DNA from: Demequina muriae
GTDB taxonomy: Bacteria > Actinomycetota > Actinomycetes > Actinomycetales > Demequinaceae
Length of the DNA: 64,000 nt
Assembly: GCF_030418295.1 (NCBI RefSeq)
Contig: NZ_JAUHQA010000001.1
Location: 2,108,001-2,172,000, forward strand
Direction of reading: 5' to 3'
Positions 31 to 58,995 of this stretch are shown piece after piece. The notes below the pieces were generated by a model. The model did no database searches, was not told where the DNA came from, and saw only the letters and a program-made list of their open reading frames with translations. A program made the position numbers and the translations under genes. How positions within the stretch are numbered: the first letter of the stretch is position 1; every line of letters starts with the position of its first letter.

Positions 31-79
31 TTCAGGCCGCGTTTTCCCTCCTGTGCCGCGGCCGACGCATCGGCCGTCC

Positions 80-85
80 TAGACT
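80..85 (+). promoter_or_regulatory. ilvD -10 box (leaderless)
   Basis: TAGACT is followed by 7 nt and then the ATG at 93. This spacing places transcription initiation at or next to the start codon. There is no Shine-Dalgarno sequence between box and ATG, so ilvD is probably read from a leaderless mRNA. Confidence 0.6.
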
Positions 86-92
86 CCGGACT

Positions 93-1790
93 ATGACGAC
101 GACGCCTGACATGAAGCCCCGCTCCCGCCAAGTCACCGACGGACTGGAGGCCACCGCGTCGCGCGGCATGCTCCGCGCCGTCGGCATGGGCGACGACGAC
201 TGGGTCAAGCCCCAGATCGGCATCGCGAGCTCGTGGAACGAGATCACGCCGTGCAACCTGTCGCTGCAGCGCCTCGCGCAGGCATCGAAGGAGGGCGTGC
301 ACGCCGGCGGCGGGTACCCGCTCGAGTTCGGCACCATCTCCGTCTCCGACGGCATCTCGATGGGCCACGAGGGCATGCACTTCTCGCTCGTGTCTCGCGA
401 CGTGATCGCGGACTCGGTCGAGGTGGTGATGAGCGCCGAGCGCCTGGACGGCTCCGTCTTGTTGGCAGGCTGCGACAAGTCCCTGCCCGGAATGCTGATG
501 GCGGCCGCGCGGCTCGATCTCGCATCGGTGTTCTTGTATGCGGGGTCGATCATGCCCGGCCACGTGAAGCTGTCGGACGGCACCGAGAAGGACGTCACCG
601 TCATCGACGCGTTCGAGGCGGTGGGCGCGTGCGCTCGCGGGCTGATGTCGGAGGAGGACAGGCTCGCGATCGAGAAGGCGATCTGCCCCGGAGAGGGCGC
701 GTGCGGCGGCATGTTCACCGCGAACACGATGGCGTCCGTGGGCGAGGCCCTTGGAATGTCGGTTCCCGGATCGGCATCGCCGCCCAGCGCCGACCGCCGC
801 CGCGACATGTACGCGCGCAAGTCCGGCGAGGCCGTGGTGCAGATGCTTCGGCAGGGGATCACCGCCCGCGACATCATGACCAAGGAGGCGTTCGAAAACG
901 CGATCGCCGTGGTCATGGCCTTCGGCGGCTCGACCAATGCGGTGCTTCACCTGCTGGCGATCGCTCACGAGGCGGACGTGGACCTGACCCTCGACGACTT
1001 CTCCCGCGTGGCCGCCAAGGTGCCGCACCTGGGCGACCTCAAGCCCTTCGGCCAGTTCGTGATGAACGACGTGGACCGCGTGGGCGGAGTGCCCGCCGTG
1101 ATGAACACGCTGCTGCAGGCGGGGCTCATGCACGGCGACGTGATGACCGTGACCGGCAAGACGCTCGCCGAGAACATGGAGGACCTCAAGCCGGAGAAGA
1201 TCGACGGCCGCGTGGTGCGCGCGCTGAACAACCCCATTCACAAGACCGGCGGCATCACGATCCTCAAGGGATCGCTGGCGCCCGAGGGCGCGGTCGTGAA
1301 GTCGGCAGGCTTCGACGACTCGGTATTCACCGGCACGGCGCGCGTGTTCGACCGTGAGCGCGCGGCTCTGGATGCGCTCGCGGATGGGACGATCACCGCT
1401 GGCGACGTGGTGGTGATTCGCTACGAGGGGCCCAAGGGCGGGCCCGGGATGCGCGAGATGCTCGCCATCACGGCCGCCATCAAGGGCGCGGGCCTGGGCA
1501 AGGACGTGCTGCTGGTCACCGATGGCCGCTTCTCGGGTGGCACCACCGGCCTGTGCGTGGGCCACATGGCGCCCGAGGCTGTGGACGGCGGTCCCATCGC
1601 GTTCGTGCGCGACGGCGACCAGATCACGCTCGACGTGGAGAACGGCCTGCTGAACCTCGACGTCTCCGAGGAGGAGCTCGCCGCCCGTCGTGAGGGCTGG
1701 GCGCCGCTGCCTCCCGTCTACACGAAGGGCGTGCTCGCCAAGTACGCGAAGCTCGTGCAGTCGGCCTCGCGCGGCGCGGTGCTCGAGTAA
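93..1790 (+). CDS. ilvD: dihydroxy-acid dehydratase
   Basis: IlvD converts 2,3-dihydroxy-isovalerate and 2,3-dihydroxy-3-methylvalerate to the 2-oxo acids, the third common step of valine and isoleucine synthesis, in the cytoplasm. The 565-aa product has the normal family length. Cysteines at about residues 54 (ITPCNLSL), 127 ([10 protein letters not shown]) and 204 ([12 protein letters not shown]) match the three conserved iron-sulfur ligands, and the GRFSGGTTG segment near residue 475 is typical of the active site. The start at 93 is chosen because a TAGACT box lies 7 nt upstream; the open frame extends back to 15, but that stretch (MTQRQLQAA...) is not family-like and contains the promoter. 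It heads the branched-chain cluster but is transcribed separately from ilvB. Confidence 0.96.
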
Positions 1791-2039
1791 GCGTTCCTCG
1801 AGGTGGGGGACCCGCACGGCCCTGACGTCCCCGCTCCTCACGCAAGTGTCGAGTCTTGGTCGTTGTGGGCGGCAGATCTGCACGGAATTCGACACGTACC
1901 GGAATGGTGCGGTGCGAGCCCGTGGGCCGGCGGGGTGGGCAGGTGCGTGGGCGCTATCAGGCGGAACACGGGCCGATGCGGGGGAGCGGCCGGAAGCCAC
2001 ACCTCGGCAGCGCCCGGGGCCGCGTGCGACGATGAGTTC

Positions 2040-2330
2040 ATGAGTCACGACATTGGGCCCATTGACCATTCCTTCACTGCGCCCATCGGCGTCGAAGTGA
2101 AGGGCGAGACGTGGGCGTGCGTCGAGATGCCCGACTCCGCCGAGTTCTTCGGTACCGGCAAGTCGGTGAAGGTCGACGCCGAGGTGGACGGCGAGGCGCT
2201 CGAGAACGTGGGTCTCATGCCGACGGGCAAAGGCGGCCACATGTTGTCGCTCAGTGCGAAGGTCCGCAAGAAGTTGGGGAAGGACCTGGGCGACGGTGTC
2301 ACCGTGCGCCTCACGCGCCGGCTGACGTAG
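2040..2330 (+). CDS. DUF1905 domain protein
   Basis: A 96-aa cytoplasmic protein of the DUF1905 type. The typical pattern is visible: a beta-rich N-terminal half, a central segment ending LMPTGKGGHMLSLSAKVRKK, and a C-terminal GDGVTVRLTRR strand. No enzymatic function is established for the family. The ATG at 2040 is preceded by GACGAT and 6 nt, the same leaderless arrangement seen at the sigma factor gene at 39801, which supports this start over the longer open frame. It sits between ilvD and the ilvB leader without obvious coupling to either and is followed by a small hairpin at 2383-2400. Confidence 0.75.
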   Translation: MSHDIGPIDHSFTAPIGVEVKGETWACVEMPDSAEFFGTGKSVKVDAEVDGEALENVGLMPTGKGGHMLSLSAKVRKKLGKDLGDGVTVRLTRRLT

Positions 2331-2382
2331 AGGCGACACTGATTGCCCACTCGGTGACGCGCAGACCTCATCTCCGACACTG

Positions 2383-2400
2383 AGCGCCCACAGGGGCGCT
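2383..2400 (+). terminator. short hairpin after DUF1905 gene
   Basis: AGCGCCC-acag-GGGCGCT forms a perfect 7-bp GC-rich stem 52 nt after the stop codon. No U-tract follows, so it may be a weak or Rho-assisted terminator. Confidence 0.4.
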
Positions 2401-2421
2401 AAGGCGGGGATGGGGCAAGGT

Positions 2422-2463
2422 CGTCTCGTTTGGTGAGACGGTGAACCACAATGTGAGATTGTT
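2422..2463. promoter_or_regulatory. two small inverted repeats upstream of ilvB leader promoter
   Basis: CGTCTC-gtttggt-GAGACG (2422-2440) is followed by CAAT-gtgag-ATTG (about 2450-2463). Both lie 35-75 nt upstream of the TACAGT box of the ilvB leader, a position suited to a transcription factor site. No specific regulator can be named. Confidence 0.3.
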
Positions 2464-2497
2464 GGCCCAAATGGCGACATGACCGCCCTCCTGGGCG

Positions 2498-2503
2498 TAC
2501 AGT
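2498..2503 (+). promoter_or_regulatory. -10 box of the ilvBNC operon (leaderless leader peptide)
   Basis: TACAGT lies 7 nt before the ATG of the leader peptide at 2511, so the transcript probably starts at that ATG. No good TTGACA-type -35 is visible. Confidence 0.6.
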
Positions 2504-2510
2504 CGATCCC

Positions 2511-2552
2511 ATGCAGACGATTCTCGTAGTTACCGGGCGCGCGGACCTCTAG
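2511..2552 (+). CDS. ivbL: ilvB operon leader peptide ([13 protein letters not shown])
   Basis: A 13-codon open reading frame whose codons 4-7 are Ile-Leu-Val-Val, the end products of the operon behind it. It begins at a leaderless ATG, 7 nt after TACAGT, and is followed by a strong hairpin (2537-2578) and an intrinsic terminator (2581-2614) before ilvB. This is the layout of a ribosome-mediated transcription attenuator: when charged Ile, Leu or Val tRNA is scarce the ribosome stalls on codons 4-7 and the downstream RNA fold changes to allow read-through. Attenuators of this kind are known upstream of ilvB in actinobacteria; the exact alternative fold here is inferred, not computed. Confidence 0.8.
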
Positions 2553-2578: not shown

Positions 2579-2580
2579 AT

Positions 2581-2614: not shown

Positions 2615-2668
2615 CATGCGAGGCGGACGCGAGAGCCGCCTCAACATTTCGACTCAATGGGAGAGAAG

Positions 2669-4522
2669 ATGGCACAGGTCAAGGCACCCAAGCCTTCGGC
2701 GCTGATGAGCCCCGCGCCCGGGTCCGCTCGGCCGCCCTCGACGGCGACCGCATCGGTCAGCGAGGGCGAGCGGATGTCGGGAGCCCAGTCGCTCATCCGT
2801 TCGCTCGAGAGCGCAGGAGCCACCGATATCTTCGGTCTCCCCGGCGGCGCGATCCTGCCCGCGTACGACCCGCTCATGGACTCGACCCAGCTGCGCCACA
2901 TCCTGGTGCGTCACGAGCAGGGTGCAGGCCACGCCGCGCAGGGCTACGCCCACGCGACCGGCCGTCCTGGCGTGTGCATCGCCACCTCGGGCCCCGGCGC
3001 GACCAACCTGGTCACGCCCATCGCCGATGCGAACATGGACTCGATCCCGCTGGTCGCCATCACCGGTCAGGTCGCTGCGGCGTCCATCGGCACGGACGCC
3101 TTCCAGGAGGCGGACATCGTGGGCATCACGCAGCCCATCACCAAGCACAACGTGCTGGTGACGGACCCGGACGACATCCCGCGCGCGGTGGCCGAGGCGT
3201 TCTACATCGCCTCCCACGGCCGCCCCGGCCCGGTGCTGGTGGACGTCGCCAAGTCCGCCATGCAGTCACAGACCACGTTCCACTGGCCCGAGCGCATCGA
3301 GCTGCCCGGCTTCAACGCTGGCGCCCGTCCGCACGCCAAGACGGTGCAGGAGGCCGCACGCCTGCTCGCGACCGCCCGCCGCCCCGTGCTCTACGTGGGT
3401 GGCGGCGTGATCCGCTCGGGCGCATCGGCCGGACTGCGGCGCCTCACCGACCTGTCGGGAGCCGCAGCGGTCACCACGCTGATGGCCCGCGGTGCCCTGC
3501 CCGACTCGCACCCGCAGAACCTGGGCATGCCCGGCATGCACGGCACCGTGGCCGCGGTCGCCGCGCTGCAGAAGGCGGACCTCGTGGTCGCCCTGGGCGC
3601 CCGCTTCGACGACCGCGTGACCGGCAAGCTCGAGAGCTTTGCCCCGCACGCGACCATCGTGCACGCGGACATCGACCCGGCGGAGATCGGCAAGAACCGC
3701 GCCGTCGACGTGCCGATCGTGGGCGACCTCAAGGAGGTCTTCGCTGCACTGGTGCCCGCGCTCGAGGCCGAGCACGCGCGTCACGGCAAGCCCGATCTCG
3801 AGGCCTGGTGGGCGCAGCTCGACGATTGGCGCACCACGTACTCGCTCGGCTACACGCCGACGGACGATGGTCACGGCTCTCCGCAGTACGTGATCCAGCG
3901 CCTGGGCGAGATCTCGGGGCCGGACACGATCTTCACGTCCGGCGTGGGCCAGCACCAGATGTGGGCGAGCCAGTTCATCAAGTACGAGCGTCCCAACACG
4001 TGGATCAACTCCGGCGGCCTGGGCACCATGGGCTTCTCGGTGCCCGCGGCCATGGGCGCCAAGGTGGGCGAGCCCGACCGCACGGTGTGGTCCATCGACG
4101 GCGACGGCTGCTTCCAGATGACCAACCAGGAACTGGTCACCTGCGCGCTCAACGAGATCCCCATCAAGGTCGCGATCATCAACAACTCGTCGCTGGGCAT
4201 GGTGCGCCAGTGGCAGACGCTGTTCTACAACCAGCGCTACTCGAACACGGACCTGCACACCGGTCACGGCACCCGCCGCATCCCCGACTTCGTGAAGCTG
4301 TCGGAGGCGATGGGCTGCGTGGGGCTGCGCTGCGAGACCGATGCGGACGTGGACGCGACCATCAAGCGCGCCATGGAGATCGACGATCAGCCCGTGGTCG
4401 TGGACTTCACCGTCTCGCGCGACGCGATGGTGTGGCCCATGGTGGCGGCAGGCACCAGCAATGACGAGATTCAGTACGCCCGCGGCATCGCCCCCGAGTG
4501 GGACCGCGGCGAGGAGGAGTGA
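2669..4522 (+). CDS. ilvB: acetohydroxyacid synthase large subunit
   Basis: The catalytic subunit condenses pyruvate with pyruvate or 2-oxobutyrate using thiamine diphosphate, FAD and Mg2+. The 617-aa protein shows the catalytic glutamate near residue 83 ([14 protein letters not shown]), the FAD-binding middle region, and the thiamine-diphosphate motif [12 protein letters not shown]...IINN near residues 479-510. An upstream in-frame ATG exists at 2657, but GGGAGAGAAG immediately before 2669 is a good ribosome binding site, so 2669 is preferred. The roughly 35 N-terminal residues, rich in Ala, Pro and Ser, precede the usual family start. Expression is probably set by the attenuator at 2511-2614. 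The ilvN start is 4 nt downstream. Confidence 0.96.
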
Positions 4523-5045: not shown

Positions 5046-5107
5046 GCCCCGGCGTCACCACCCCAAGCCGGCCCGCGCATCGGCCGCACGCAGTTTCCCC
5101 CACTTGA

Positions 5108-7221
<2,114 letters not shown>

Positions 7222-7317: not shown

Positions 7318-8451
7318 ATGACTGACACCACCGCATCGGCCGCGCAGTCCAGTGTGGTCGCCTCGAATGCCGCCGCCTTCGAGGTCCGCCCCAGCGCGAA
7401 CCCGCTGCCGGCGATTCAGCGGGACGCCGCCCTCGCGGACCTCAAGTTCGGCACCCAGTTCACCGATCACATGGCGCGCATGCAGTGGCGCAAGGACGAG
7501 GGCTGGGGCGACCGCCGCGTCGAGGCCTACGGCCCGCTGCAGCTCGACCCCGCCGCGGCAGTGCTGCACTATGCGCAGGAGATCTTCGAAGGTCTCAAGG
7601 CCTTCAAGTGGGCCGATGGCAGCGTGCACCTGTTCCGCCCCGAGGCCAACGCCGAGCGCTTCAACCGCTCCGCGCATCGGCTCGCGCTGCCGCAGCTGCC
7701 CGTCGAGGACTTCGTGGGCTCCCTCGAGGCGCTCATCGCCGCCGACGTGGCGTGGGTGCCCGGCGTCGAGGAGTCGAGCCTGTACCTGCGCCCCTTCATG
7801 TTCGCCTCCGAGGCGTTCCTGGGCGTGCGGCCCGCCCACGTCATCGACTACCTGCTGATCGCCTCTCCCGTGGGCCCGTACTTCCCGGGCGGCGTCAAGC
7901 CGGTGTCGATCTGGGTCGCGCAGGGCTTCCACCGCGCCGGACCCGGCGGCACGGGTGACGCCAAGTGCGGCGGCAACTACGCGGCCTCGCTGCTCCCTCA
8001 GCAGCAGGCCGCCGAGCACGGCTGCCAGCAGGTGCTGTTCCTCGACGCGAAGAACGACCGCTACCTCGAGGAGCTGGGCGGCATGAACGTGTTCGTGGTG
8101 CGCCGCGACGGCACCATCGAGACCCCGCGTCTGACCGGCACCATCCTCGAGGGCATCACGCGCTCCAGCGTGATCCAGCAGCTCGAAGATGATGGCCGCA
8201 AGGTGATCGAGAAGGACATCACGCTGGACGAGGTGCGCGCCGGCGTCGAGGACGGCGACATCGCCGAGGTCTTCGCGTGCGGCACCGCCGCGGTCGTCAC
8301 GCCCGTGGGACGGCTCGCGTCGCCCACGTTCGACGTGCAGATCAACGGTGGCGAGGCCGGCCAGGTGACCATGGGCATCCGTCAGCGCCTCACCGACATC
8401 CAGTACGGGCGCGACGAGGACACCTACGGCTGGATGCGCCGGGTCGCCTGA
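7318..8451 (+). CDS. ilvE: branched-chain amino acid aminotransferase
   Basis: This PLP enzyme transfers the amino group between glutamate and the branched-chain 2-oxo acids, the last step for Leu, Ile and Val. The 377-aa product is class IV aminotransferase-like. The Schiff-base lysine is about residue 216 (GDAKCGGNYAASLL), with the preceding substrate motif YLRPFMFASE and the PLP phosphate-binding ITRSSV. ATG 7318 has the site AAGGGG about 10 nt upstream; the longer frame from 7273 runs through the inverted repeat and is rejected. It ends the ilv-leu cluster. A close paralogue lies at 32290-33396. Confidence 0.94.
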   Translation: MTDTTASAAQSSVVASNAAAFEVRPSANPLPAIQRDAALADLKFGTQFTDHMARMQWRKDEGWGDRRVEAYGPLQLDPAAAVLHYAQEIFEGLKAFKWADGSVHLFRPEANAERFNRSAHRLALPQLPVEDFVGSLEALIAADVAWVPGVEESSLYLRPFMFASEAFLGVRPAHVIDYLLIASPVGPYFPGGVKPVSIWVAQGFHRAGPGGTGDAKCGGNYAASLLPQQQAAEHGCQQVLFLDAKNDRYLEELGGMNVFVVRRDGTIETPRLTGTILEGITRSSVIQQLEDDGRKVIEKDITLDEVRAGVEDGDIAEVFACGTAAVVTPVGRLASPTFDVQINGGEAGQVTMGIRQRLTDIQYGRDEDTYGWMRRVA

Positions 8452-8535
8452 CGGTTCCTCGGGTCGCCGGGGCAATCCGGCCGATGCGCGATCAGTCACG
8501 ATTCGCGGCCGCCTGATGGCGCGGCGGGCTCCGTA

Positions 8536-9489: not shown

Positions 9490-9613
9490 GTGATCATGGC
9501 ACCACTGTGGCCGCCACGCGCGATGGCGCCGACCGGGCCGGCCACGTACAGTCGTGAGCCGGCGCTGGCCTGGTGACATCGGCCGATGCGCGTGTCTGGC
9601 TTCGCAACGCACG

Positions 9614-10489: not shown

Positions 10490-10544
10490 GCGCTGGCCTC
10501 GTCTCAGCACTTGCGGAGCGAAGTCCGGCCGATGCGCGGGCCGG

Positions 10545-11437: not shown

Positions 11438-11477
11438 GGCGGCCGATGCGGCGGCTGGGTCGCGACACAATGGCACC

Positions 11478-13301: not shown

Positions 13302-13571
13302 ATGCGAGGAATCGACCACAGCGTCGCACCGGTGATCTGGTCGGGGGTCTTCTGGCTGCTGGTGGTGCTCGCGATCGGCGCGGCCGTGTACCTGACCGCG
13401 CGCATGGTGACGGACAGGCGGGCCGATGCGCTCGCCGAGCAGTCCGCCGCCGCGCCCGCCGCTCGGGTGGAGCCGGCGACGACCGCGCGCGCCATCCTGG
13501 ACGAACGGCTCGCCAAGGGCGAGATCGACGTCGACGAGTACAAGCAACGCCTGGAAGCGCTGGACCAGTAG
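13302..13571 (+). CDS. SHOCT-domain membrane protein
   Basis: An 89-aa protein with one TM helix (about residues 10-32), an Ala-rich linker, and a C-terminal SHOCT motif (ILDERLAKGEIDVDEYKQRLEAL). SHOCT domains are short oligomerisation modules of unknown specific role. The start at 13302 is chosen because AGGGAGAAGG lies just upstream; an alternative ATG at 13260 would add 14 residues and could be leaderless. One GGCCGATGCG copy lies in the coding sequence at 13421 and encodes the segment RADAL. Confidence 0.75.
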   Translation: MRGIDHSVAPVIWSGVFWLLVVLAIGAAVYLTARMVTDRRADALAEQSAAAPAARVEPATTARAILDERLAKGEIDVDEYKQRLEALDQ

Positions 13572-13587
13572 CGCCCGGCCCTGGCCC

Positions 13588-13648
13588 GCATCGGCCGTTG
13601 TCGCACCGCGGACTCCTCTCCCTGCGGAGCGCGAGGACGGCCGATGCG
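13588..13648. repeat. inverted pair of the GGCCGATGCG motif
   Basis: CGCATCGGCCGT at 13588 and ACGGCCGATGCG ending at 13648 form 12-bp complementary arms separated by 37 nt. The pair lies between the SHOCT gene and fadD, where a transcription terminator would be expected. It may act as a hairpin as well as carrying two copies of the dispersed motif. Confidence 0.7.
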
Positions 13649-13711: not shown

Positions 13712-15511
13712 ATGACCGCAGAAATGTCGACGCCGACGCTCGTCCAGCGTGACGAGATCACGCACCTCACCGCCATGCTGGCTGCGCGCGCCCATGCCGC
13801 ACCCGACGCCGCCTTCGCTGAGGTCAAGGACGCCGACGGCACGTGGCGCACGATCACGCTGGCCGAGTACCACTCGCGTGTGCGCGCCGTCGCGAAGGGC
13901 CTGATCTCCCGCGGCGTCAAGGCCGGAGACCGCGTGGGCATCATGGGCGACACGCGTTACGAGTGGTCGGTCATGGACTTCGCGATCCTGGCCGCCGGCG
14001 CAGTGAGCGTCCCGGTCTACCCGTCGTCGTCCGCGACACAGGTGGAGTGGATGGTGGCCGATGCAGGCATCACCCTGGTCGCCGTCGACACTGCGGAGCG
14101 GGCCGGGCTGGTGACTCAGGCCTCGGTGACGATGGTGATGCTGGACGACGATGGCCTGGATGCGCTCGCCGCCGCAGGGGAGTCGGTCTCCGACACCGAC
14201 CTCGACGCTCGCACCGCCGACGTGGTCGGCGACGACATCGCCACCATCATCTACACCTCGGGCACCACCGGCCGCCCCAAGGGTGCCATGCTCTCGCACG
14301 GCAACTTCGTCGAGCAGGTGCTGAACATCGAGCGCGATCCCGGCTACGGCGGGTTCGTCGCGGGCGATGACGCCCGGCTGCTGCTGTTCCTGCCGCTCGC
14401 CCACGTGTTCGGCCGCATCGCCATGATTCTTGCGCTGTCCGCCGGCACCGTCATCGGGTTCGCCCCGAGCCACAAGACGCTCGCGGATGACCTCGGCACG
14501 TTCCGCCCCACCTTCCTCGTGCTGGTGCCGCGGGTGCTCGAGACGGTCTACAACAGGGCCGATGCGGCGCAGTCGGGGCTCAAGAAGCGCATCTTCCGAT
14601 GGTCCGCCAAGGTCACGCGCCAGTATGCACTCGCTCGCGAGACCGGCACGCCCGGGCTCGGCCTGAGGGTGAAGCTCGCCGTCGCGGACCGGTTGGTGCT
14701 GTCGAAGCTGCGTGCCAAGCTGGGCGGCAACCTCAAGTACGCGCTGGCAGGCGGTGCGCGCCTGAACGAGGACGTGGGCCACTTCTTCCAGGGACTCGGC
14801 GTGACCGTGCTGCAGGGCTATGGCCTCACCGAGACCACCGCCGCCGCGATGGGCACGCCCGAGGACGCCAACGTCATGGGCACCGTGGGACGGCCCATCG
14901 CGGGCAACGAGATGAAGCTGGCCGACGACGGCGAGATTCTGCTGCGCGGCGCGAGCCTGTTCCAGGGCTACTGGAACGCTCCCGAGGCCACGGCTGAGGT
15001 CATGCGCGACGGCTGGTTCGCGTCCGGCGACATGGGCGAGATGGTCAATGGCGCGCTGAACATCGTGGGCCGCAAGAAGGAGATCCTGGTGCTGTCCTCG
15101 GGCAAGAACGTGCAGCCCGCGGTGCTGGAGAACTCCATGCGCTCGCATCCCGCGATCCAGGACTCGGTGGTGGTGGGCGAAGGCAAGCACTTCGTCTCCG
15201 CGCTGGTGGCGCTGGACGAGGCGATGCTGCCCGCGTGGCTCAAGCAGCACGAGCTTCCGGACATGACTGTCGAAGAGGCGGCGAACGACTCGCGAGTGCG
15301 CGACCTGATCTCGCGTGCGATCGCGCTCGCGAACGCCCACGTCTCACGCGCCGAGTCCATCCGGGAGTTCCGCATCCTGCCCAGCTCGTTCTCCGAGGCG
15401 CGCGAGGAGCTCACGGCTTCGCTCAAGACGCGTCGCAGCGTGATCATGGCCCACTACGCGGCCGTGGTCGACGAGATCTACTCGAAGGCGATGCCGCCCT
15501 CGCGTCCGTAA
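13712..15511 (+). CDS. long-chain acyl-CoA synthetase (AMP-forming)
   Basis: A 599-aa ANL-superfamily enzyme that activates fatty acids to acyl-CoA via an acyl-adenylate. The P-loop-like motif IIYTSGTTGRPKGAML is near residue 184, the adenine motif GYGLTETTAAA near 370, the ATP-ribose Asp within WFASGDMGEM near 435, and the hinge Arg/Lys region GRKKEILVLSSGKNVQP near 452. The length and the YPSSSATQVEWMVADAG segment match FAA1-type long-chain ligases. The start is fixed by the leaderless promoter. The open frame reaches back to 13277 only by chance. It is convergent with the next gene. Confidence 0.9.
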   Translation: MTAEMSTPTLVQRDEITHLTAMLAARAHAAPDAAFAEVKDADGTWRTITLAEYHSRVRAVAKGLISRGVKAGDRVGIMGDTRYEWSVMDFAILAAGAVSVPVYPSSSATQVEWMVADAGITLVAVDTAERAGLVTQASVTMVMLDDDGLDALAAAGESVSDTDLDARTADVVGDDIATIIYTSGTTGRPKGAMLSHGNFVEQVLNIERDPGYGGFVAGDDARLLLFLPLAHVFGRIAMILALSAGTVIGFAPSHKTLADDLGTFRPTFLVLVPRVLETVYNRADAAQSGLKKRIFRWSAKVTRQYALARETGTPGLGLRVKLAVADRLVLSKLRAKLGGNLKYALAGGARLNEDVGHFFQGLGVTVLQGYGLTETTAAAMGTPEDANVMGTVGRPIAGNEMKLADDGEILLRGASLFQGYWNAPEATAEVMRDGWFASGDMGEMVNGALNIVGRKKEILVLSSGKNVQPAVLENSMRSHPAIQDSVVVGEGKHFVSALVALDEAMLPAWLKQHELPDMTVEEAANDSRVRDLISRAIALANAHVSRAESIREFRILPSSFSEAREELTASLKTRRSVIMAHYAAVVDEIYSKAMPPSRP

Positions 15512-16124: not shown

Positions 16125-16130
16125 AGGTTA
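16125..16130 (-). promoter_or_regulatory. -10 box of the DHFR-like gene (leaderless)
   Basis: On the minus strand TAACCT is followed by 6 nt and the ATG at 16118. No ribosome binding site is present. Confidence 0.55.
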
Positions 16131-16236
16131 GATCTGTTGCGGACTAGGCGCACGAGATGTGGCCAGCGCACGGAGATAGGCCGAATGCAGTCACTCATGA
16201 GTACATCCGAAGAATGCGGGGCTGTTAGACCATTCA

Positions 16237-16265
16237 TTGGCACACCCGAGGGAAGCCGATACTCT
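16237..16265 (+). promoter_or_regulatory. promoter of the RelA/SpoT-like gene
   Basis: TTGGCA (16237-16242), a 17-nt spacer, TACTCT (16260-16265), 6 nt, then ATG 16272. Both elements and the spacing are good, making this one of the clearest promoters in the window, and it predicts a leaderless mRNA. Confidence 0.65.
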
Positions 16266-16271
16266 CAGGGC

Positions 16272-17399
16272 ATGAGCAAAGGAATCGGCCGAGGAAACTA
16301 CGGCGCGTATGCGTCCGCAACCGGGTCGCTCGAAGGCCTGGGCAAGTCGGTTTGCACCTTCCTGGAAGCCTTGCTCGCAGCCGAAGAGGTGCCGGTCCAC
16401 AGTGTCTCGCATCGTGTGAAGACTATCGAGAGCGCTGACAGCAAGATGGCACGCAAGTCGGAAACGTATGGCACTTATGCTGACCTTCTGGATCTACTTG
16501 GGATCCGCATAATCACCTACTTTCCGGACGATGTCGATGCTGTCTGCACGATTGTCGAGCGCGAGTTCGACGTCGACTCGCTGAACTCGGTCGACAAGAG
16601 GGAGGCGCTGGCGCCAAACGTGTTCGGATATCTCTCCGCGCATTACGTCGTAGCCCTTGCCGACAACCGAAGTAAGTTGCCCGAGTATCGTGTATGGGCA
16701 GACTTACGGTTCGAGGTGCAGGTAAGGAGCATCCTGCAGCACGCTTGGGCGGAAATTGAGCATGACCTGGGATACAAGTCTGAAGAGGCGCTGCCGCGCT
16801 CATTCCGGCGGCGGTTTTCTAGGCTTGCGGGGCTCCTCGAGTTGGCCGACGCAGAGTTTCAGTCAATTCGAGTCGATCTAGCCGCATACCAAGTAACGGT
16901 TGGTGAGCGTGTCGAAGCATCACCTGGAGAGGTCGGACTGAACCAAACGTCACTCCGCGCCTGGCTCGAGCGCTCGGAGGTTGCGGCGCGCGTAGACGAA
17001 GAACTTGCTGAGATTGCCGAGGTTGCGTTGCGCGTCACTGAGGACGAGCGCCTAGCACGCGACGCCCGGACTCTCGCAGAAGTAGGCGTTGATACAGCCG
17101 AGCAACTCACGGTGGCGATGGCCAAGTACGAACAGTACATTGTGAAGTTCTTCGATCTGTGGTGGAATCGCGCCCTACCCGATACGCCTGAGCGCGCAAG
17201 CGCCATGCACCGTGATCTTCCTCACGGCATCTCGTTTTTCTATCTCGCTTACGTTCTCATAGCACAGCGATCCGAATCTGAACTTCGAGACTACATCGAA
17301 GCCAAGGGCTTCCGCAGCGGAAGCAAGAAGCAGGTGATCGCTCAGGTTCGCGAGACCTGGGACGCCGTCGTTCGCGAACTCGGCGAGCCGTCTGCTTGA
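16272..17399 (+). CDS. stand-alone RelA/SpoT-domain nucleotide pyrophosphokinase
   Basis: A 375-aa protein with an N-terminal (p)ppGpp-synthetase-type domain (about residues 20-185). Visible elements are the ATP-binding RVKTIESADSKMARK, the DLLGIRI motif with the catalytic Asp/Gly/Arg pattern, GYLSAHYVVAL, and FEVQVRSILQHAWAEIEHDLGYK, so the synthetase site looks intact. No HD hydrolase domain precedes it. The roughly 190-residue C-terminal part is mostly helical; it ends in a SAP-like helix pair (SESELRDYIEAKGFRSGSKKQVI) and resembles no TGS or ACT region. Known relatives make (p)ppGpp or (p)ppApp; some act as toxins or phage sensors. Codon use is less GC-rich than that of its neighbours. 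Function is inferred. Confidence 0.85.
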   Translation: MSKGIGRGNYGAYASATGSLEGLGKSVCTFLEALLAAEEVPVHSVSHRVKTIESADSKMARKSETYGTYADLLDLLGIRIITYFPDDVDAVCTIVEREFDVDSLNSVDKREALAPNVFGYLSAHYVVALADNRSKLPEYRVWADLRFEVQVRSILQHAWAEIEHDLGYKSEEALPRSFRRRFSRLAGLLELADAEFQSIRVDLAAYQVTVGERVEASPGEVGLNQTSLRAWLERSEVAARVDEELAEIAEVALRVTEDERLARDARTLAEVGVDTAEQLTVAMAKYEQYIVKFFDLWWNRALPDTPERASAMHRDLPHGISFFYLAYVLIAQRSESELRDYIEAKGFRSGSKKQVIAQVRETWDAVVRELGEPSA

Positions 17400-17851
17400 C
17401 GTGACCTAGCAGCACAACCCGGGAAATAGCTGGGGCCACTCGAGGGCTTCGTTTCGATCCCGGAGGCCAAGGCATCGGAGCGGTGTCAGTCAACCCGTCC
17501 TCGTGCGTGAGGCGACCGGCCTTGGTGCGAAGCACCGTCCTAGGCCTATTGGCCATTCGCGGGTCGACGGGCATCGGAGAGACGCGACGCTAGAGGGATG
17601 GAACAAGGCACGCGCCGACCGTTTCTCGTCAGCCCACACCGATAGGTCTGCATGCGGTTCGCACGCCCGGCCAGCGGGCGGCGCGTGCGCTCGCTGATGG
17701 CTGGGCGCGCGGCCGCTGAGGACAGCGGGTGGACTTACTTGACACCACTAAGAGAGCACCGGTGTGCACCACGAGCCATAGCCTCCCGGGCTGTGGCGTG
17801 CCTCGCTGCCCTCACGCCGCGTACCAATAAGCTGCGCGGCAGGAGGTTCGA
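17400..17851. other. 452-nt non-coding stretch inside the accessory block
   Basis: No convincing gene lies here; the short open frames (17503-17697, 17652-17894) lack ribosome binding sites and family-like sequence. A TTGACA box occurs at 17739-17744 without a well-placed -10 box. A TACCAAT element followed by AGGAGG just before 17852 probably serves the NUDIX gene. The segment around 17445-17465 looks weakly like a tRNA T-arm, but no cloverleaf can be folded around it. Confidence 0.5.
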
Positions 17852-18262
17852 GTGGCTCAGGGCGCGAAGTACATTCAGGTTGTCGGTGCAGTGATCGTGC
17901 GCGGTGGCGAGATCCTGTGTGCTCAACGGGGCCCCGACGGGGCACTCGCCGGAATGTGGGAGTTCCCAGGTGGAAAAGTTGAGCGCGGTGAGCAAGCTCG
18001 CGACGCGCTGACTCGTGAGATCGACGAGGAACTGTTCTGCGACGTCGCCGTGGGCAACATGCTCACGACTACGGTCTTCGAGTACGACTTCGGGACGATC
18101 GAACTGACGACGTTCTGGTGCGAACTGGTATCGGGAACACCGGTACTGACGGAGCATGCCGAGGTGCGCTGGTGCCGACCGGAGGGTCTGCAAGACCTCG
18201 AGTGGGCGCCCGCGGACATCCCCGCTGTTGAGCTCATCGTCGAGAGTGCGGCTCTCGCCTAA
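17852..18262 (+). CDS. NUDIX hydrolase (MutT-like)
   Basis: A 136-aa NUDIX protein. The box GGKVERGEQARDALTREIDEEL (about residues 42-63) has every consensus position (G-x5-E-x7-R-E-x2-E-E-L), so it should hydrolyse a nucleoside-diphosphate-linked substrate. The N-terminus (VVGAVIVRGGEILCAQRG) resembles 8-oxo-dGTP/CTP pyrophosphohydrolases. GTG 17852 has AGGAGG 6 nt upstream. The stop codon overlaps the helicase ATG (TAATG), so the two proteins are translationally coupled, which suggests a joint role rather than simple nucleotide-pool cleaning. A (d)NTP or an alarmone made by the RelA-like gene upstream are possible substrates; neither is shown. Confidence 0.88.
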   Translation: MAQGAKYIQVVGAVIVRGGEILCAQRGPDGALAGMWEFPGGKVERGEQARDALTREIDEELFCDVAVGNMLTTTVFEYDFGTIELTTFWCELVSGTPVLTEHAEVRWCRPEGLQDLEWAPADIPAVELIVESAALA

Positions 18263-21369: not shown

Positions 21370-21410
21370 GGCTCAGGAATACCCACCCAAACCTGCACGT
21401 TCCTCCGACC

Positions 21411-24954: not shown

Positions 24955-24997
24955 CCTCCGATCCTCTCAGCACGCGTGCGGCCGATGCGCGGGTTGC

Positions 24998-39238: not shown

Positions 39239-39801
39239 CATCTGCCTCCTCGGGCATGGGCGTCCACAGGGATGGACTCGGGGGTGTCGAAGTCGACGTC
39301 GGCGCAGACCTCGCGCAGCCGCGCGACCGCATCGGACAGGTAGCGCTTGACCGTCCCGACCGCGAGGCCGAGTTCGCTCGCCACGCCCGCGACGGGCAGG
39401 TCGTCGAGGTACCTCAGCACCACGCACGCGCGTTCGCGCGGCGGGAGGGTGAGGATGGCGGCGTGCAGATCCAGGTGGGCGGCCACGCGGACGGAGGGAT
39501 CGGGGCCAGCGGCCGATGCGCGGGCGAGGGAGTAGTCGCCGTCGTCGCCTCCGGCGCGTTGCGGGCGAGCGGTCGCGCGGCGGTGACGATCGATGAAGGC
39601 CGTCGAGATGGCGCGCTTCACGTACGCGTGCGCGGCGTCGATGTTCGCCACGCGGCGGCTGGAGCGGAAGGTGCGGACCAACGCCTCCTGGAGAAGGTCC
39701 TCGGCCTCGTGCGCGTCTCCCGTCAGCACGTACGCGTAGCCGAACAGCGCGGCCGCGCGCTCGCGCATCAAGGCGTCGAGAGTGCTCGACCAGGCGCTCA
39801 T
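39238..39801 (-). CDS. ECF sigma factor (SigE-like)
   Basis: A 187-aa extracytoplasmic-function sigma factor. Region 2 (about residues 10-75) includes ALFGYAYVLTGDAHEAEDLLQEALVRTF and YVKRAISTAFIDRHRR; region 4 (about 115-165) includes LTLPPRERACVVLRYLDDLPVAGVASELGLAVGTVKRYLSDAVARL. The start at 39801 is supported by GACGAT with a 6-nt spacer (leaderless). The downstream overlapping gene encodes a single-TM MltG-like protein. It is paralogous to the sigma factor at 60467. Confidence 0.92.
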   Translation of the reverse strand: MSAWSSTLDALMRERAAALFGYAYVLTGDAHEAEDLLQEALVRTFRSSRRVANIDAAHAYVKRAISTAFIDRHRRATARPQRAGGDDGDYSLARASAAGPDPSVRVAAHLDLHAAILTLPPRERACVVLRYLDDLPVAGVASELGLAVGTVKRYLSDAVARLREVCADVDFDTPESIPVDAHARGGR

Positions 39802-43853: not shown

Positions 43854-46800
43854 CTAGCTCCTGTCCGTCATCAGCGTCTCGACCACGCGCGCTGAGGCCG
43901 ACCCGTCGTCCTGGGGACAATACCGAGCGGCGAAGGCGTCGATGTCGAAGCCGGGCAGCGCGCCCTCGGTCAGCGCCGTCTCGATCGCCTCATGCACCTC
44001 GTCGTCGGTGCGCGTGAGGGGGCCGGGCAGGTCCTTCTCCATGTCGAGGTAGAAGCCACGGAGCTCGTCCCGGTACCGGTCCAGATCCGGCACATGGAAG
44101 ATCATGGGCCGGCGCAGGTTCGCGAAGTCGAAGAACAGTGACGAGTAGTCCGTGATCAGCACGTCTGTCGCCGCCAGCAGGTCCTGCGTGTCCGGATAGT
44201 CGGAGACGTCGACGACGGCGCTGGACGCCTCGTCAGGAATCACCACGGTGGTGCGGTCCAGGACGTGCTTGCGCACCAGCAGCACCGCATCGGCGCCGAA
44301 GCGGCGGGCGAAGAGCACGGGATCGATGTTGCCCGCGGGCCCCTGGCCGCTCGCGCTTCCCAGCTGGTCGTCACGGAACGTCGGCGCGAAGAGCACGATG
44401 CGCCGGGTGGGCGAGAGCCGGTACGCGCGGCGCACACGCGCCTCGGCTTCGAGCCGTGCGACGCCGAAGAACACATCGTTGCGTGGGTACCCCAGCTCCA
44501 CGATGTCGCCGTCGAACTGGAAGGCCGATCGCATCACGGACGAGGAGTGGGGGTTCGGCGACAGGAGCACCGACCACTGCTGGGCCGCCGTCGTCGCTCT
44601 CTCGACGTAGCCGGAATCCCGTCCCGTGACCACGTCGAGATCGTGAAGCATGCGCTTGAGCGGAGTGCCGTGCCACGTCTGGATGTAGACGCGCCGGGCG
44701 TCGCTGTGGACGTAGTGCGGCAGGCTCTGGTTCGAGACCCAGAATCGAGCCCGGCCCAGGTGGACGAAGTAGCGCAGCGACAGGCGCTTGACCACGTCGG
44801 CCCCTCCGCCGATGTTCGCTGGCCGCCCGTTGTACGCCCACACCGTGCGAAGGTCGGGCCTGCTGCGCAGGACCTCCTCGTAGATCGCCCGCGGGCTGTC
44901 ACCGAACTGCTTGCCCACACCGGACTCGAACACCACGCGGCGATCATCCCGCGGCAGCGCCGATGCGACCCGGAGTACCAGGCGCGCGAGCGGGAAGTAC
45001 AGATCGGAGCGCCGCAGTCGCCGGTAGCCCGACGTCGCGATGCGCTCGAGAGTCCGTCGCGCATCGGCCGTGATGCGCAGTCGCCGCGTGCGATGGGCCG
45101 ATGCGATCGCGGCGTGGATCCGTGCGTTCGCCTGCTGGTCGCGCGGGGGGTAGTACGAGTCCGCGACCTGGACGTTCTCATCCGAGGGCTGGAGACCGTT
45201 GCCGATGACTCTCCCCAGCGCGCCGATCACCTGCGCCCGCGTGAAGGCGATGTCGCCGGGCAGGTCCGAATCGAGGTCGAGGTGGGATCCCTTGCGGCCC
45301 AGGAACCGGTCGCGGTCGAACTGGAAGTACAGCACCGGTCGGTGGAGCAGCGCCGCATCGAAGCCCACGGAGGAGTAGTCCGTGAGCACCACAGCGGAGT
45401 CGATCAGCAGGTCCTGCACGCTGATCTCGCCCGGCCGCATGACAGTGACGCCGGCATCCTCGAAGTCGGCGACGTAGCGGCGCATGTTGGGGTGCAGCGA
45501 GAGCACCACCTCGAGTCCCGCATCGGCACACATGGCGACGAATGTCGGGTCGGAGAGCAGACCGTGCCACTCGCGCGAGTACTCGCTGCCCGCATAGTCA
45601 TCGGGGTTGGCAAGCCAGTCGCGCCAGGTGGGAATCACCAGCAGTCGCTTGCGGGGCGTGGGATGGTGCGCCATCAACGTGTCGAAGCGCGACAGCCCGG
45701 TCACGGCGATCTGTCTGGGCCGGTAGCCGAAGTCGCGCACCAACAGGTCGCGCTCGCGCTCGGAGCTCGCAATGACGAGGTCGGGCGAGAAGCCGTCGGC
45801 GTCGCGACCGTAGAGGTCGGCCATCCACTTGGTGCCCATGATGCCGTGCTGCAGGAACACGCGCAGGCCCCTCACCCGTGCATCGAAGCGGTCGGTGCGC
45901 AGCGGGTACAGGTATCCGGGGTGGTGCGAACCGATGATGCGGGTGGCGTGCAGGACCGTGCGAGCGTGATCGATGGTCCCCGCCCTGACGACGGTGCCCA
46001 CCGCGGCCGCGCGGTCGAAGTCGGGGCTGTCGGCGTCGATCACTGCACGCGCGTCGATCTCGGGGTGATGCTCGCTCAGCCATGAGAAGAAGGCGAAGGC
46101 CGTGTCCTGGAACCGGTCGGGCCGCTCCCCGATCACCCAGATGGGCCGCTGAGAAGGGTGCCGCACCCGGGCCCACGCGCGCCGCGCCCGGATGAGTCGT
46201 GACTCGGATCGGATGAACGACATCACGTCGCGCGGCAGCCGGCTGTGGGTGAAGGAGAGGCGTTTCGCCTTGAAGGTGAAGAAGGGGCTGAAGACGTGGC
46301 CACGGTCGCCGTCGACCGCGAAGCTCGGGTCCATGCGCACCACGCCCGCGGTGCGGGGCCGGGGGACGCGCACCCGCACGGTGTCCGCGTGCTCGAACGT
46401 GATCTCCAACGAGACGTCGAGGGTGCCAGGGTCGACGAACGCGTCGAGCGTGTCGGTCCACGCCAGCGTGGCGCGGAACGCGTGCCGCTGGAGGCCTCCC
46501 ACCGCCTTCGACGCACGCCAGGTGCGGAGGGGAACCGCGACCTCGTTGTCGGTGCCGCGCTCGCGCAGCACCAGGTTCGCTGACGAGGCGCCGTGGGGCG
46601 GAACCCAGGCGCGCCCCATGATCGTCGTGCCCGACTGACGGGAGACCATCGCGTTGGTCACGACCTTGGGCGTGGGCGGGAAGGGTGGGCCGGAGACCAC
46701 CACGACGGTGCCCGCTCCTGAGATCGAGACGAGGGCGGCGGAGGAGCCCGCGCGGAAGGGACGCATCTCCCCGACGGTCACGTCTCGCGGCAGTGCGAGC

Positions 46801-47360: not shown

Positions 47361-48956
47361 ATGACGGATCTCACAGTGGAGGTCTACGACACGACTCTGC
47401 GCGATGGCGCGCAGCAGGAGGGCATGAATCTGTCCGTCGCGGACAAGATGGCGATCGCACCCCTGCTCGACGAGCTCGGCGTGGGCGTCATTGAAGGGGG
47501 ATGGCCCGGCGCGGTGCCCAAGGACACCGAGTTCTTTGCGCTCGCGGCCAAGGAGCTGACGTTCAGGAACGCTCAGCTCGCCGCCTTCGGCATGACGCGC
47601 AAGGCCGGCACCACCGCCGCCGCGGACCCGCAGGTGCGCGCGCTGCTCGACTCAGAGGCGCCCATCGTCACGCTGGTCGCAAAGTCGGACATCCGTCACG
47701 CCGAGCGCGCGCTTCGCGTCGCGCCCGACGAGAACCTGCGCATGATCGAGGAGACTGTCGCGTTCCTCGCGGGGGAGGGCCGGCGCGTGATCCTCGACGC
47801 GGAGCACTTCTTCGACGGCTACCAGTACGACGCCGAGTACGCGATCCGCGCGCTGCAGGCGGGCGTCGCGGCCGGCGCCGATGTGGTGTGCCTGTGCGAC
47901 ACCAACGGCGGCATGCTGCCCGATGACGTGAGCGAGATCGTGCGCGCCGTGGGCGAGCGCGTGGACGCAGTGCTCGGCATGCACGCACACAACGACTCCG
48001 GCTGTGCGGTGGCCAACTCGATGGCCGCCGTGGCCGCGGGCGCCACCCACGTGCAGGGCTGCGTGAATGGCTATGGCGAGCGCACGGGCAACGCAGATCT
48101 GGTCGCGGTGGTCGCGAACCTCGAGCTCAAGCGCGGCGTCAGCGCACTCAAGCACGACGGCCTCGCGGAGTCGACCCGGATCGCTCACGCCATCGCCGAG
48201 ATCACCAACATCGCGCCGTTCGCGCGCCAGCCGTACGTCGGCGCCTCGGCCTTCGCGCACAAGGCTGGCCTGCACGCATCGGCGATCCGCGTGGATCCCG
48301 ACCTCTACCAGCACCTGGACCCTTCGCTGGTGGGCAACGACATGCGCATGCTCGTGTCCGAGATGGCGGGCCGCGCCTCGATCGAGCTCAAGGGCAAGGA
48401 ACTCGGGTTCGACCTGGCGGGGCAGAACGAGCTCCTGGGCCGCGTGACGGATCGCGTCAAGCACGCGGAGGCCGCCGGCTACACCTTCGATGCGGCCGAT
48501 GCGTCCTTCGAGCTCCTGCTGCGCAGCGAGCTGGGGGAGACGCCGGCGTTCTGGGACGTCGAGACCTGGCGCGTGCGCGTCTCGTCAGTGCCGGGCGACC
48601 CGACCGATGCCGACGCCGAGGCCGTGGTGAAGGTGCGCGCGGGATCCGAGCGCATCGTCGCCCTGGGCGAGGGGAACGGACCGGTGAACGCCCTCGACCA
48701 CGCCCTGCGCGACGCGCTGTGCGGCGTCTACCCGGAGATCGAGGAGTTCGAGCTCACCGACTTCAAGGTGCGCATCATGGAGGCGTCCCACGGCACCGAT
48801 GCGGTCACCCGGGTGCTCATCACGACCGTCCACCGCGAGACCGGGACGACGTGGCGCACCGTGGGGGTGGGCCCGAACGTCATCGAGGCATCGTGGGAGG
48901 CGCTCGCCGACTCGCTCGTCTACGGGCTGCTCAAGGCGGGCGTCGAACGGCGCTAG
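47361..48956 (+). CDS. cimA: citramalate synthase
   Basis: A 531-aa enzyme that condenses pyruvate with acetyl-CoA to citramalate, the first step of threonine-independent isoleucine synthesis; LeuCD and LeuB then give 2-oxobutyrate. The TIM barrel carries VYDTTLRDGAQQEG (residues 7-20) and the metal/substrate motif GMHAHNDSGCAVANSMAA near 205, then GCVNGYGERTGNADL. The C-terminal LeuA-type regulatory domain (about 395-525) usually binds isoleucine. The length and the AQQEG variant favour CimA over LeuA. GAGGAGA precedes ATG 47361. It is controlled by the attenuator directly upstream. Confidence 0.9.
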   Translation: MTDLTVEVYDTTLRDGAQQEGMNLSVADKMAIAPLLDELGVGVIEGGWPGAVPKDTEFFALAAKELTFRNAQLAAFGMTRKAGTTAAADPQVRALLDSEAPIVTLVAKSDIRHAERALRVAPDENLRMIEETVAFLAGEGRRVILDAEHFFDGYQYDAEYAIRALQAGVAAGADVVCLCDTNGGMLPDDVSEIVRAVGERVDAVLGMHAHNDSGCAVANSMAAVAAGATHVQGCVNGYGERTGNADLVAVVANLELKRGVSALKHDGLAESTRIAHAIAEITNIAPFARQPYVGASAFAHKAGLHASAIRVDPDLYQHLDPSLVGNDMRMLVSEMAGRASIELKGKELGFDLAGQNELLGRVTDRVKHAEAAGYTFDAADASFELLLRSELGETPAFWDVETWRVRVSSVPGDPTDADAEAVVKVRAGSERIVALGEGNGPVNALDHALRDALCGVYPEIEEFELTDFKVRIMEASHGTDAVTRVLITTVHRETGTTWRTVGVGPNVIEASWEALADSLVYGLLKAGVERR

Positions 48957-56392: not shown

Positions 56393-56468
56393 CGTGACCA
56401 TTGTGGCGGACGGGAGTCCTCGCGTTCCCACACGAGGGAGCGGGGCCCCGAAATGAGTGCCGACGTTC

Positions 56469-57703: not shown

Positions 57704-57710
57704 GGGCACC

Positions 57711-57716
57711 AGTGTG
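57711..57716 (-). promoter_or_regulatory. -10 box of the ybaK-yggS pair (leaderless)
   Basis: On the minus strand CACACT is followed by 7 nt and ATG 57703. The first base departs from TANNNT, but the A at position 2 and T at position 6 are kept. Confidence 0.45.
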
Positions 57717-57752
57717 CCGCATGTGCGACGGCGTCCAGCCGCGCGCATGGCC

Positions 57753-57758
57753 TACGCT
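57753..57758 (+). promoter_or_regulatory. -10 box of the RNase HI gene (leaderless GTG)
   Basis: TACGCT, 6 nt, then GTG 57765. This supports GTG 57765 over the in-frame ATG at 57747, which would lie upstream of the predicted transcription start. Confidence 0.6.
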
Positions 57759-57764
57759 CTCGGG

Positions 57765-58220
57765 GTGACCAGCGACACCCTGACCCCTGTGGACATGTGG
57801 ACCGACGGCGCCTGCAAGGGCAACCCCGGCGTGGGCGGATGGGGAGCGTGGATGCGCACCGGAGGCAAGGAGCGCGAGCTATTCGGCGGCGAGCTCCAGA
57901 CCACGAACAACCGCATGGAGCTCACCGCGGTGATCGAGGGCCTCAAGGCGCTCAACCGGCCGTGCGCCGTGACGCTTCATGTCGACTCCACGTACGTCAT
58001 GAACGGCGTCACCAAGTGGATTCACGGCTGGAAGCGCAACGGCTGGAAGACCGGCGACAAGAAGCCGGTCAAGAACAAGGAGCTGTGGATCGCGCTCGAC
58101 GAGCAGGTCGCGCGGCATGAGATCACCTGGGTGTGGGTCAAGGGCCACGCGGGAGATCCGGGCAACGAGCGCGCGGACCAGCTGGCGAACAAGGGCGTCG
58201 ACAAGGTCCGCGGCGCCTGA
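57765..58220 (+). CDS. rnhA: ribonuclease HI
   Basis: A 151-aa RNase HI that cleaves RNA in RNA-DNA hybrids. All catalytic elements are visible: Asp in [17 protein letters not shown] (about residue 11), Glu in [13 protein letters not shown] (about 49), Asp in [11 protein letters not shown] (about 71), and His/Asp in [18 protein letters not shown] (about 126-136). The basic handle region [20 protein letters not shown] is present, as in the E. coli enzyme. The start is fixed by the leaderless promoter. Confidence 0.95.
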
Positions 58221-58329
58221 CCCGCCGATCCGCCAACCCGCCCGCCCTCCTGCTGTAGGAAGGTTCTGTACACCGTTCGTGCTCGGAGCACGTCCTGGAG
58301 GACGATTCTGTGCGCTCGGCCCTCCGCGC

Positions 58330-58335
58330 TAGCCT
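58330..58335 (+). promoter_or_regulatory. -10 box of the yigZ-like gene (leaderless GTG)
   Basis: TAGCCT, 6 nt, then GTG 58342, with no ribosome binding site. Confidence 0.6.
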
Positions 58336-58341
58336 GCCGAG

Positions 58342-58995
58342 GTGACCTCCCGCCCGCTCCCGTCGACTGTTCGCTCGGCCGTCGAGCATCGCGTGGAGGT
58401 CAAGAAGTCGGTCTTCCTCGCTCGGCTCGAGCCCGTCGCGTCCGTTGAGGCGGCCGATGCGGTCGTCGCCCGGGTGCGCAAGGAGCACTGGGAGGCGCGG
58501 CATCACTGCACGGCGCTCGTGATCGGGCCGCACGCGGACCGGCAGCGATCCAATGACGACGGCGAGCCCGCGGGCACCGCCGGGGCGCCCATGCTCGAGG
58601 TGCTGCGCCACCGAGAGGTCACCGACCTCGTGGCCGTGGTGACCCGCTGGTTCGGCGGGACACTGCTGGGCGCCGGCGGACTCGTGAGGGCGTATGGCGG
58701 CGCGGTGACCGGCGCGCTCGATCGCGCTCGGCTCGTGGAGCGGGTGCACCTCACCCAGGTGACGGCCGATGCGCCCCAGGCGGAGGCAGGCAGGATCGTC
58801 GCGTACTTGCACCAGTGGGCGGAGGCGCACGGTGCCGTGCTGGACGATCCTGTGTACGGCAAGGCGGTGAGCCTCTCGATCCACGCGGCGCCAGAACTGG
58901 TGCCGGTGCTCGAGGCGGACATGGCCGCGCTGACGGGTGGTGCGGTGGCGATGACGGTGGGCGAGACGGCGATCGTGGACCGGCCTGCGCCCTAG
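58342..58995 (+). CDS. yigZ: YigZ/IMPACT-family protein
   Basis: A 217-aa YigZ-like protein: an N-terminal UPF0029/IMPACT domain (EVKKSVFLARLEPVASVEAADAVVARVRKEHWEARHHCTALVIG, then NDDGEPAGTAGAPMLEVL and VVTRWFGGTLLGAGGLVRAYGGAV), and a C-terminal ferredoxin-like DUF1949 domain. The function is uncertain; a role in translation regulation is suggested by IMPACT homology. Two dispersed-motif copies lie within it (58452, 58764), both encoding Ala-Asp-Ala. Confidence 0.9.
   Translation: MTSRPLPSTVRSAVEHRVEVKKSVFLARLEPVASVEAADAVVARVRKEHWEARHHCTALVIGPHADRQRSNDDGEPAGTAGAPMLEVLRHREVTDLVAVVTRWFGGTLLGAGGLVRAYGGAVTGALDRARLVERVHLTQVTADAPQAEAGRIVAYLHQWAEAHGAVLDDPVYGKAVSLSIHAAPELVPVLEADMAALTGGAVAMTVGETAIVDRPAP

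Follow-up and report, generated by a model that had tools for sequence, protein, structure and literature searches.

The question raised by this locus is why one 10-mer, GGCCGATGCG, recurs so often on both strands of a stretch of 64,000 nucleotides from Demequina muriae (contig NZ_JAUHQA010000001.1, positions 2,108,001 to 2,172,000), here called the window, with positions counted from its first letter (position 1); the genome under study is designated G000. The answer put forward is that GGCCGATGCG is quite probably a putative DNA uptake sequence (DUS) of this Demequina, serving natural transformation. An excess of the word had been noticed in the original prediction, which gave about 32 copies (19 and 13 in the two orientations) and listed a DNA-uptake-like element first among several options. 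The strong excess was confirmed, although a recount gave 33 exact copies, 20 forward and 13 reverse, spanning positions 66 to 58773.

In 100 dinucleotide shuffles of the window, GGCCGATGCG appeared 1.0 times on average and three times at most. It was the top-ranking 10-mer of the window, the next-ranked ones being shifts of it, and the whole G000 genome (2.80 Mb) contained 1,203 copies, evenly divided between the forward (600) and reverse (603) orientations. Fine-scale statistics were obtained from 444–504 kb of the 2.8 Mb. Under an order-4 Markov model, 189 copies were observed in 464 kb compared with 14.5 expected (z = 45), and 206 in 504 kb compared with 15.7 expected (around 13-fold). The other top-scoring words in these samples were overlaps or shifts of GGCCGATGCG, and no unrelated word came near its excess, so that the over-representation of a single word survived the Markov correction. 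The reversed word, taken as a control, appeared 21 times in the whole genome, a count that is too low because this word contains TAG and is depleted in coding DNA; for this reason, the excess was assessed against Markov expectations, and ratios of 2–4 to this control in other families were not counted as signal. The reverse complement of GGCCGATGCG is a different word, CGCATCGGCC, so the motif is non-palindromic. Moreover, its single-mismatch spectrum showed that positions 4–9 (CGATGC) were rigid, with little excess of variants, while variants at positions 1, 2, 3 and 10 were in excess.

The placement of the copies was then considered using gene calls from a home-made codon-based caller. The density of GGCCGATGCG was 1.19 per kb in intergenic DNA and 0.33 per kb in coding DNA, a 3.6-fold difference (P = 1e−12), with 54 of 187 sites falling in the 10.2% of the sampled DNA that is intergenic. 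In the window, about 10 of the 33 copies were intergenic by these gene calls instead of the nine reported before, the enrichment itself being upheld. Within genes, one phase per orientation prevailed, as had been proposed: 124 of 133 coding sites encoded Ala-Asp-Ala on the same strand (75) or Ala-Ser-Ala on the opposite strand (49). The codons involved were seldom used elsewhere, again as claimed, since once the motif was masked GAT represented 17% of the Asp codons and GCA 9% of the Ala codons. Furthermore, GCC-GAT-GCG spelled 131 of the 305 Ala-Asp-Ala tripeptides, where codon usage predicted 3%. These codon-phase data support the earlier view that selection acts on the DNA and not on the protein.

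They also bear on the simplest alternative, namely that the word simply arises from codon usage, from GC content or from Ala-Asp-Ala repeats in proteins. Most copies are indeed coding and spell common Ala-rich peptides, but the word is 3.6 times denser between genes, relies on the rare codons GAT and GCA, exceeds the Markov expectation 13-fold and spells different peptides in its two orientations. Such an artefact was rejected on the Markov counts and the intergenic density, and its probability is considered practically negligible.

The spacing of the sites was near Poisson, and they were uniformly distributed along genes without a bias towards gene ends (Kolmogorov–Smirnov P = 0.81). The best split of 206 mapped sites into two arcs did not exceed permutation (P = 0.33), in agreement with the non-polar signal proposed originally. 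Chi sites and FtsK-orienting polar sequences (KOPS) were rejected as identities of the word because no orientation bias was found along the replichores, and terminator hairpins were rejected because close inverted pairs were not enriched.

Across 36 further Demequina genomes, GGCCGATGCG was present in 16 to 1,056 copies, and the low counts in relatives were mostly explained by altered words. Six words, here called dialects, were found in excess around the core CGA(T/C)GC: GGCCGATGCG, GGACGATGCG, GGCCGATGCC, GGCCGATGCT, GGACGATGCC and GCCCGACGCT; dialects other than GGCCGATGCG, GGACGATGCG and GCCCGACGCT come from samples of around 20–80 kb per species. In roughly twelve genomes, the word GGACGATGCG was counted 711–1,564 times, compared with 121 times in G000; these genomes include Demequina sp. 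SYSU T00192 (1,564), D. maris (1,480), D. soli (1,475), D. salsinemoris (1,403) and D. silvatica (1,369), and GGACGATGCG was dominant as well in D. iriomotensis, D. phytophila, D. rhizosphaerae and genome G004. Dominance of GGCCGATGCC was found in D. globuliformis, NBRC 110057, G064 and G024, that of GGCCGATGCT in D. aurantiaca, G010 and G021, and that of GGACGATGCC in G027. The word GCCCGACGCT had 908 copies in G009, 254 in G012 and no more than 52 elsewhere, often with GTGG directly after it. Any word signal was weak in G001, G018 and G028. In a phylogeny obtained from eight concatenated proteins, dialects were distributed largely by clade.

The dialects were also seen to replace one another at the same site. 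At column 2652 of the alaS alignment, GGCCGATGCG was present in G000, G014 and G034, GGACGATGCG in G026, G022 and G017, and GGACGATGCC in G027. By their aligned sequences, sites of this kind represent rewriting in place into the dialect of each species, and in-place rewriting points to a genome-wide reader whose preference would change, rather than to descent of a fixed repeat or to chance. It likewise bears on a dispersed mobile short repeat carrying the word, either a repetitive extragenic palindromic (REP) element or a miniature inverted-repeat transposable element (MITE). The many dispersed copies would suit such a repeat, but dialects arising by substitution in place are unexpected for copies that move. 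This candidate, which we regard as very improbable, was rejected because the flanks lacked extended conservation, with information below 0.32 bits per position on either side; the little preference there is was for C immediately ahead of GGCCGATGCG and for G four bases past its end.

The same dialects weigh on a methylation-linked origin, in which an orphan methyltransferase together with biased repair would accumulate its own site. The core GATGC resembles what we take to be a methyltransferase-type site. Moreover, the highly iterated palindrome HIP1, another word of very high copy number, tracks methyltransferases (PMC4390886). However, GGCCGATGCG is not palindromic, the dialects change at positions 3 and 10, which lie outside GATGC, and in one of them the T of the core is replaced by C. 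In addition, the methyltransferase family PF00145 was found in 6 and PF01555 in 3 of 12 motif carriers, and neither in G000, other methyltransferase families not having been searched; a link to a C5 or N6/N4 methyltransferase was rejected with respect to these two families. This explanation is judged distinctly unlikely. As a separate observation, the HIP1-like palindromes GGCGATCGCC or CGCGATCGCG were raised in some Demequina (12 copies per 21 kb, around 1–2 being expected), namely in the sampled loci L094 (D. activiva) and L100 (D. salsinemoris) and in the samples of G012 and G061.

Beyond the genus, 396 genomes of the order were analysed for the shortened word GGMCGATGC, which was strongly raised in Demequina. 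Outside it, several genomes of a family designated f20 showed 8–10 times the biased reversed control, and this family carried the words GGACGATGCCG and GCCCGATGCCG, while in G202, from a second genus of that family, GGMCGATGC was mildly raised. Genome G365, from family f11, had 1,929 copies compared with 197 of the reversed control; in the 180 kb of it that were sampled (L187–L189 and L205–L210), GGCCGATGC was only 2.6-fold over the Markov expectation, and there was no single dominant word. Apart from these words, the sample L190 (G237) contained an AT-rich repeat around ATAAATTGAAACACTCG and GTGAGCAGGAT in five to six copies, resembling an array of clustered regularly interspaced short palindromic repeats (CRISPR).

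The conservation of individual sites was analysed in the closest relative. The YggS-type gene of the window had its top match in D. aestuarii (83%), and its high-identity matches were almost all from Demequina; judged by sequence, G000 is a Demequina species near D. aestuarii (G014). In window DNA that aligned between the two at 86.9% identity, 12 of 15 GGCCGATGCG sites (80%) were intact, compared with 28% of anagram words and 33% of all 10-mers. The copies of GGCCGATGCG in the window are the following:

66–75, reverse strand, intergenic
1971–1980, forward strand, intergenic
3421–3430, reverse strand, in the gene at 2657–4522
5076–5085, reverse strand, intergenic
7140–7149, forward strand, in the gene at 6163–7221
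7332–7341, reverse strand, in the gene at 7318–8451
8479–8488, forward strand, intergenic
9581–9590, forward strand, intergenic
10527–10536, forward strand, intergenic
11441–11450, forward strand, intergenic
13421–13430, forward strand, in the small gene call at 13332–13571
13587–13596, reverse strand, intergenic, inverted pair with 13639
13639–13648, forward strand, intergenic, inverted pair with 13587
14557–14566, forward strand, coding, conserved in D. aestuarii
20888–20897, reverse strand, in the DUF3427 helicase gene at 18262–21369
24980–24989, forward strand, intergenic
25067–25076, reverse strand, coding
25214–25223, forward strand, coding
28346–28355, reverse strand, coding, conserved in D. 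aestuarii
29125–29134, forward strand, coding, conserved in D. aestuarii
29736–29745, reverse strand, coding
29775–29784, reverse strand, coding, not conserved in D. aestuarii
31597–31606, forward strand, coding, conserved in D. aestuarii
32349–32358, reverse strand, coding, conserved in D. aestuarii
36135–36144, forward strand, coding, conserved in D. aestuarii
37512–37521, forward strand, coding, not conserved in D. aestuarii
39032–39041, reverse strand, coding, conserved in D. aestuarii
39511–39520, forward strand, coding, conserved in D. aestuarii
45060–45069, reverse strand, coding, not conserved in D. aestuarii, inverted pair with 45096
45096–45105, forward strand, coding, conserved in D. 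aestuarii
48494–48503, forward strand, coding, conserved in D. aestuarii
58452–58461, forward strand, coding, conserved in D. aestuarii
58764–58773, forward strand, coding, conserved in D. aestuarii

A region of atypical composition elsewhere in G000 (L033, G000:C1:430001-450000, 20 kb) had 2 GGCCGATGCG sites compared with around 8 expected. It encoded a PglX-like methylase with DUF7008 (Eco57I-type), a NERD/kinase protein and a DUF6079 protein, a content that we read as a defence island resembling the bacteriophage exclusion (BREX) and phage growth limitation (Pgl) systems; a Schlafen-type helicase and an MTES_1575 endonuclease-helicase adjoin it. In 5-kb bins, the density of sites increased with the GC content (rho 0.26, P = 0.009), and its correlation with coding typicality was not significant. 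The capsid family PF05065, used as a prophage marker, had no match in 12 genomes. Within the window, positions 16130–21373 could not be aligned to any of the D. aestuarii slices used for comparison; they carry the gene of a PLD-ResIII-DUF3427 helicase (18262–21369), possibly a defence gene.

An alternative in which the copies would be unoriented binding sites of a nucleoid-organising, replication-associated or recombination-control protein would account for the high copy number, the near-Poisson spacing, the genome-wide spread and the balanced orientation. Nevertheless, dialect switching in place and the scarcity of the word in an acquired defence island would suit a self-tag better, and Chi and KOPS are polar, unlike GGCCGATGCG. 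Besides, we know of no protein site that consists of a 10-mer with 1,200 copies and species dialects changing so fast. This alternative is considered unlikely; neither the nucleoid or replication site nor the methylation or restriction site offered by the original prediction is favoured by the evidence, whereas its uptake-like option gains from the dialects, their switching in place and the competence genes.

As for these genes, comEA (SLBB and helix-hairpin-helix, HHH_3) was found in G000 directly before comEC, between degV and holA, and comEC had both its Competence and its metallo-beta-lactamase domains. A type IV pilus cluster comprising pilB (with the MshEN domain), pilT, pilC, prepilins, pilD and pilM was located after alaS-ruvX-mltG-aroE, the prepilin leaders being GFTLxE or similar, and two further T2SSE ATPases were present. 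Of 44 Demequina genomes, 43 encoded ComEC and every one encoded DprA, and a PilB-type ATPase was found in practically all. Two quite different minor-pilin cassettes alternated across the genus (L167 and its equivalents in L168–L186). In three assemblies, the Competence domain of comEC was split between frames (G009:C1:2039413-2040200, G027:C1:423579-424363 and G060:C1:296957-297743), owing either to sequencing indels or to real inactivation.

We infer from these features that the cells would be naturally competent and would take up DNA bearing the word preferentially; our guess for the protein that would read it is ComEA or one of the type IV minor pilins. As a DUS, GGCCGATGCG would be a short, unoriented self-tag preferred by the competence machinery as free DNA is bound and brought in; what enters the cell and recombines would then mostly be DNA from the same species, the likely route of import being from the type IV pilus through ComEA and ComEC to DprA and RecA. 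DNA bearing the word would be imported and recombined more often, and alleles gaining it would thereby spread by biased uptake, a molecular drive that would act mostly where the protein allows it, that is, between genes or in the Ala-Asp-Ala or Ala-Ser-Ala phase. A shift in the preference of the receptor in a lineage would then let the whole genome drift to a new dialect around CGA(T/C)GC. For DUS and for uptake signal sequences (USS), the established model is that they accumulate through biased uptake and recombination (see also PMC1939737).

Several observations weigh against this reading. Some Demequina genomes, G003 among them, have ComEC and pilus genes, yet no dominant word was found in their samples. 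Inverted pairs within 80 bp, which are common in Neisseria DUS, were not enriched (9 compared with 6.3 expected, in mixed orientation). A depletion of the word in foreign DNA is suggestive only, coming from one island and the GC correlation, and within the window, GGCCGATGCG was not obviously depleted in DNA that D. aestuarii does not share. The two extra T2SSE ATPases are consistent with Tad loci, which makes the type of pilus used ambiguous. Moreover, four pilin or minor pilin genes (L167 14665-18069) were 44–54% identical in protein sequence between G000 and D. aestuarii, most flanking genes being 96–99% identical, and both species share the same dialect despite these hypervariable minor pilins. 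The type of the type IV pilus cluster (two types) did not track the dialect, and for this reason minor pilins were not retained as the readers of the dialects, no receptor being assigned. Finally, no report of uptake, transformation or competence in Demequina was found in the open-licence PubMed Central literature.

Among competent bacteria, sequence-specific uptake has been described as an outlier restricted to relatives of Neisseria and Haemophilus, with nearly all other competent species being indifferent to sequence (PMC12040237), and it is also described as an exception in PMC12236230. The open-licence PubMed Central literature yielded no uptake sequence reported from Actinobacteria or from any monoderm, earlier work elsewhere being possible. 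It is probable, judging from the sequence evidence, that Demequina has a third, independently evolved uptake-sequence system, the first for Actinobacteria and for monoderms as a whole, with at least six dialects in the genus and related words in the neighbouring family f20 of the order, which would imply a sequence-specific receptor borne by ComEA or by the type IV pilus of a Gram-positive bacterium. If so, self-tagging by uptake bias would have arisen a third time, in a phylum that is distant and monoderm, and would be shown to evolve more than once and with no need of an outer membrane; Demequina would be transformable when the donor DNA carries the right 10-mer, and the rewriting of dialects in place, in alaS and elsewhere, would be a direct record of the process. 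The genus, with around 44 genomes, would offer a replicate clade for the study of molecular drive, dialect switching and receptor co-evolution.

Among the known systems, HIP1 of cyanobacteria is also a highly iterated genome-wide word, but it is palindromic and tied to methyltransferases, while GGCCGATGCG is non-palindromic and had no common methyltransferase in the two families tested (PMC4390886). Micrococcus luteus shares with Demequina an actinobacterial comEA-comEC and has Flp/Tad pili, to be compared with the Tad-consistent T2SSE matches of Demequina; in contrast, it has no type IV pili, which Demequina does have, and the parts consulted of its two reports mention no uptake word (PMC6370729, PMC12849477). 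The Pasteurellaceae USS, of the Hin and Apl types, are likewise short repeated words with variants in relatives and a biased reading frame (PMC1626085, PMC2346458), although their sequence is unrelated, their hosts belong to another phylum and the Demequina word has no bias towards gene ends (P = 0.81, as above). The Neisseriaceae DUS, GCCGTCTGAA, has no evident relation to GGCCGATGCG, neither strand of which contains its CTG core; its host is a diderm proteobacterium instead of a high-GC monoderm actinobacterium, the inverted terminator pairs are not enriched in Demequina, and no equivalent of ComP was identified there, though no search for ComP was made. The architecture nevertheless agrees in each feature apart from these pairs: in both, a ten-base non-palindromic word is present in hundreds to thousands of copies, placed at permissive and intergenic positions, with dialects around a common core that follow the phylogeny and with genes for a type IV pilus and ComEA/ComEC (PMC3630211).

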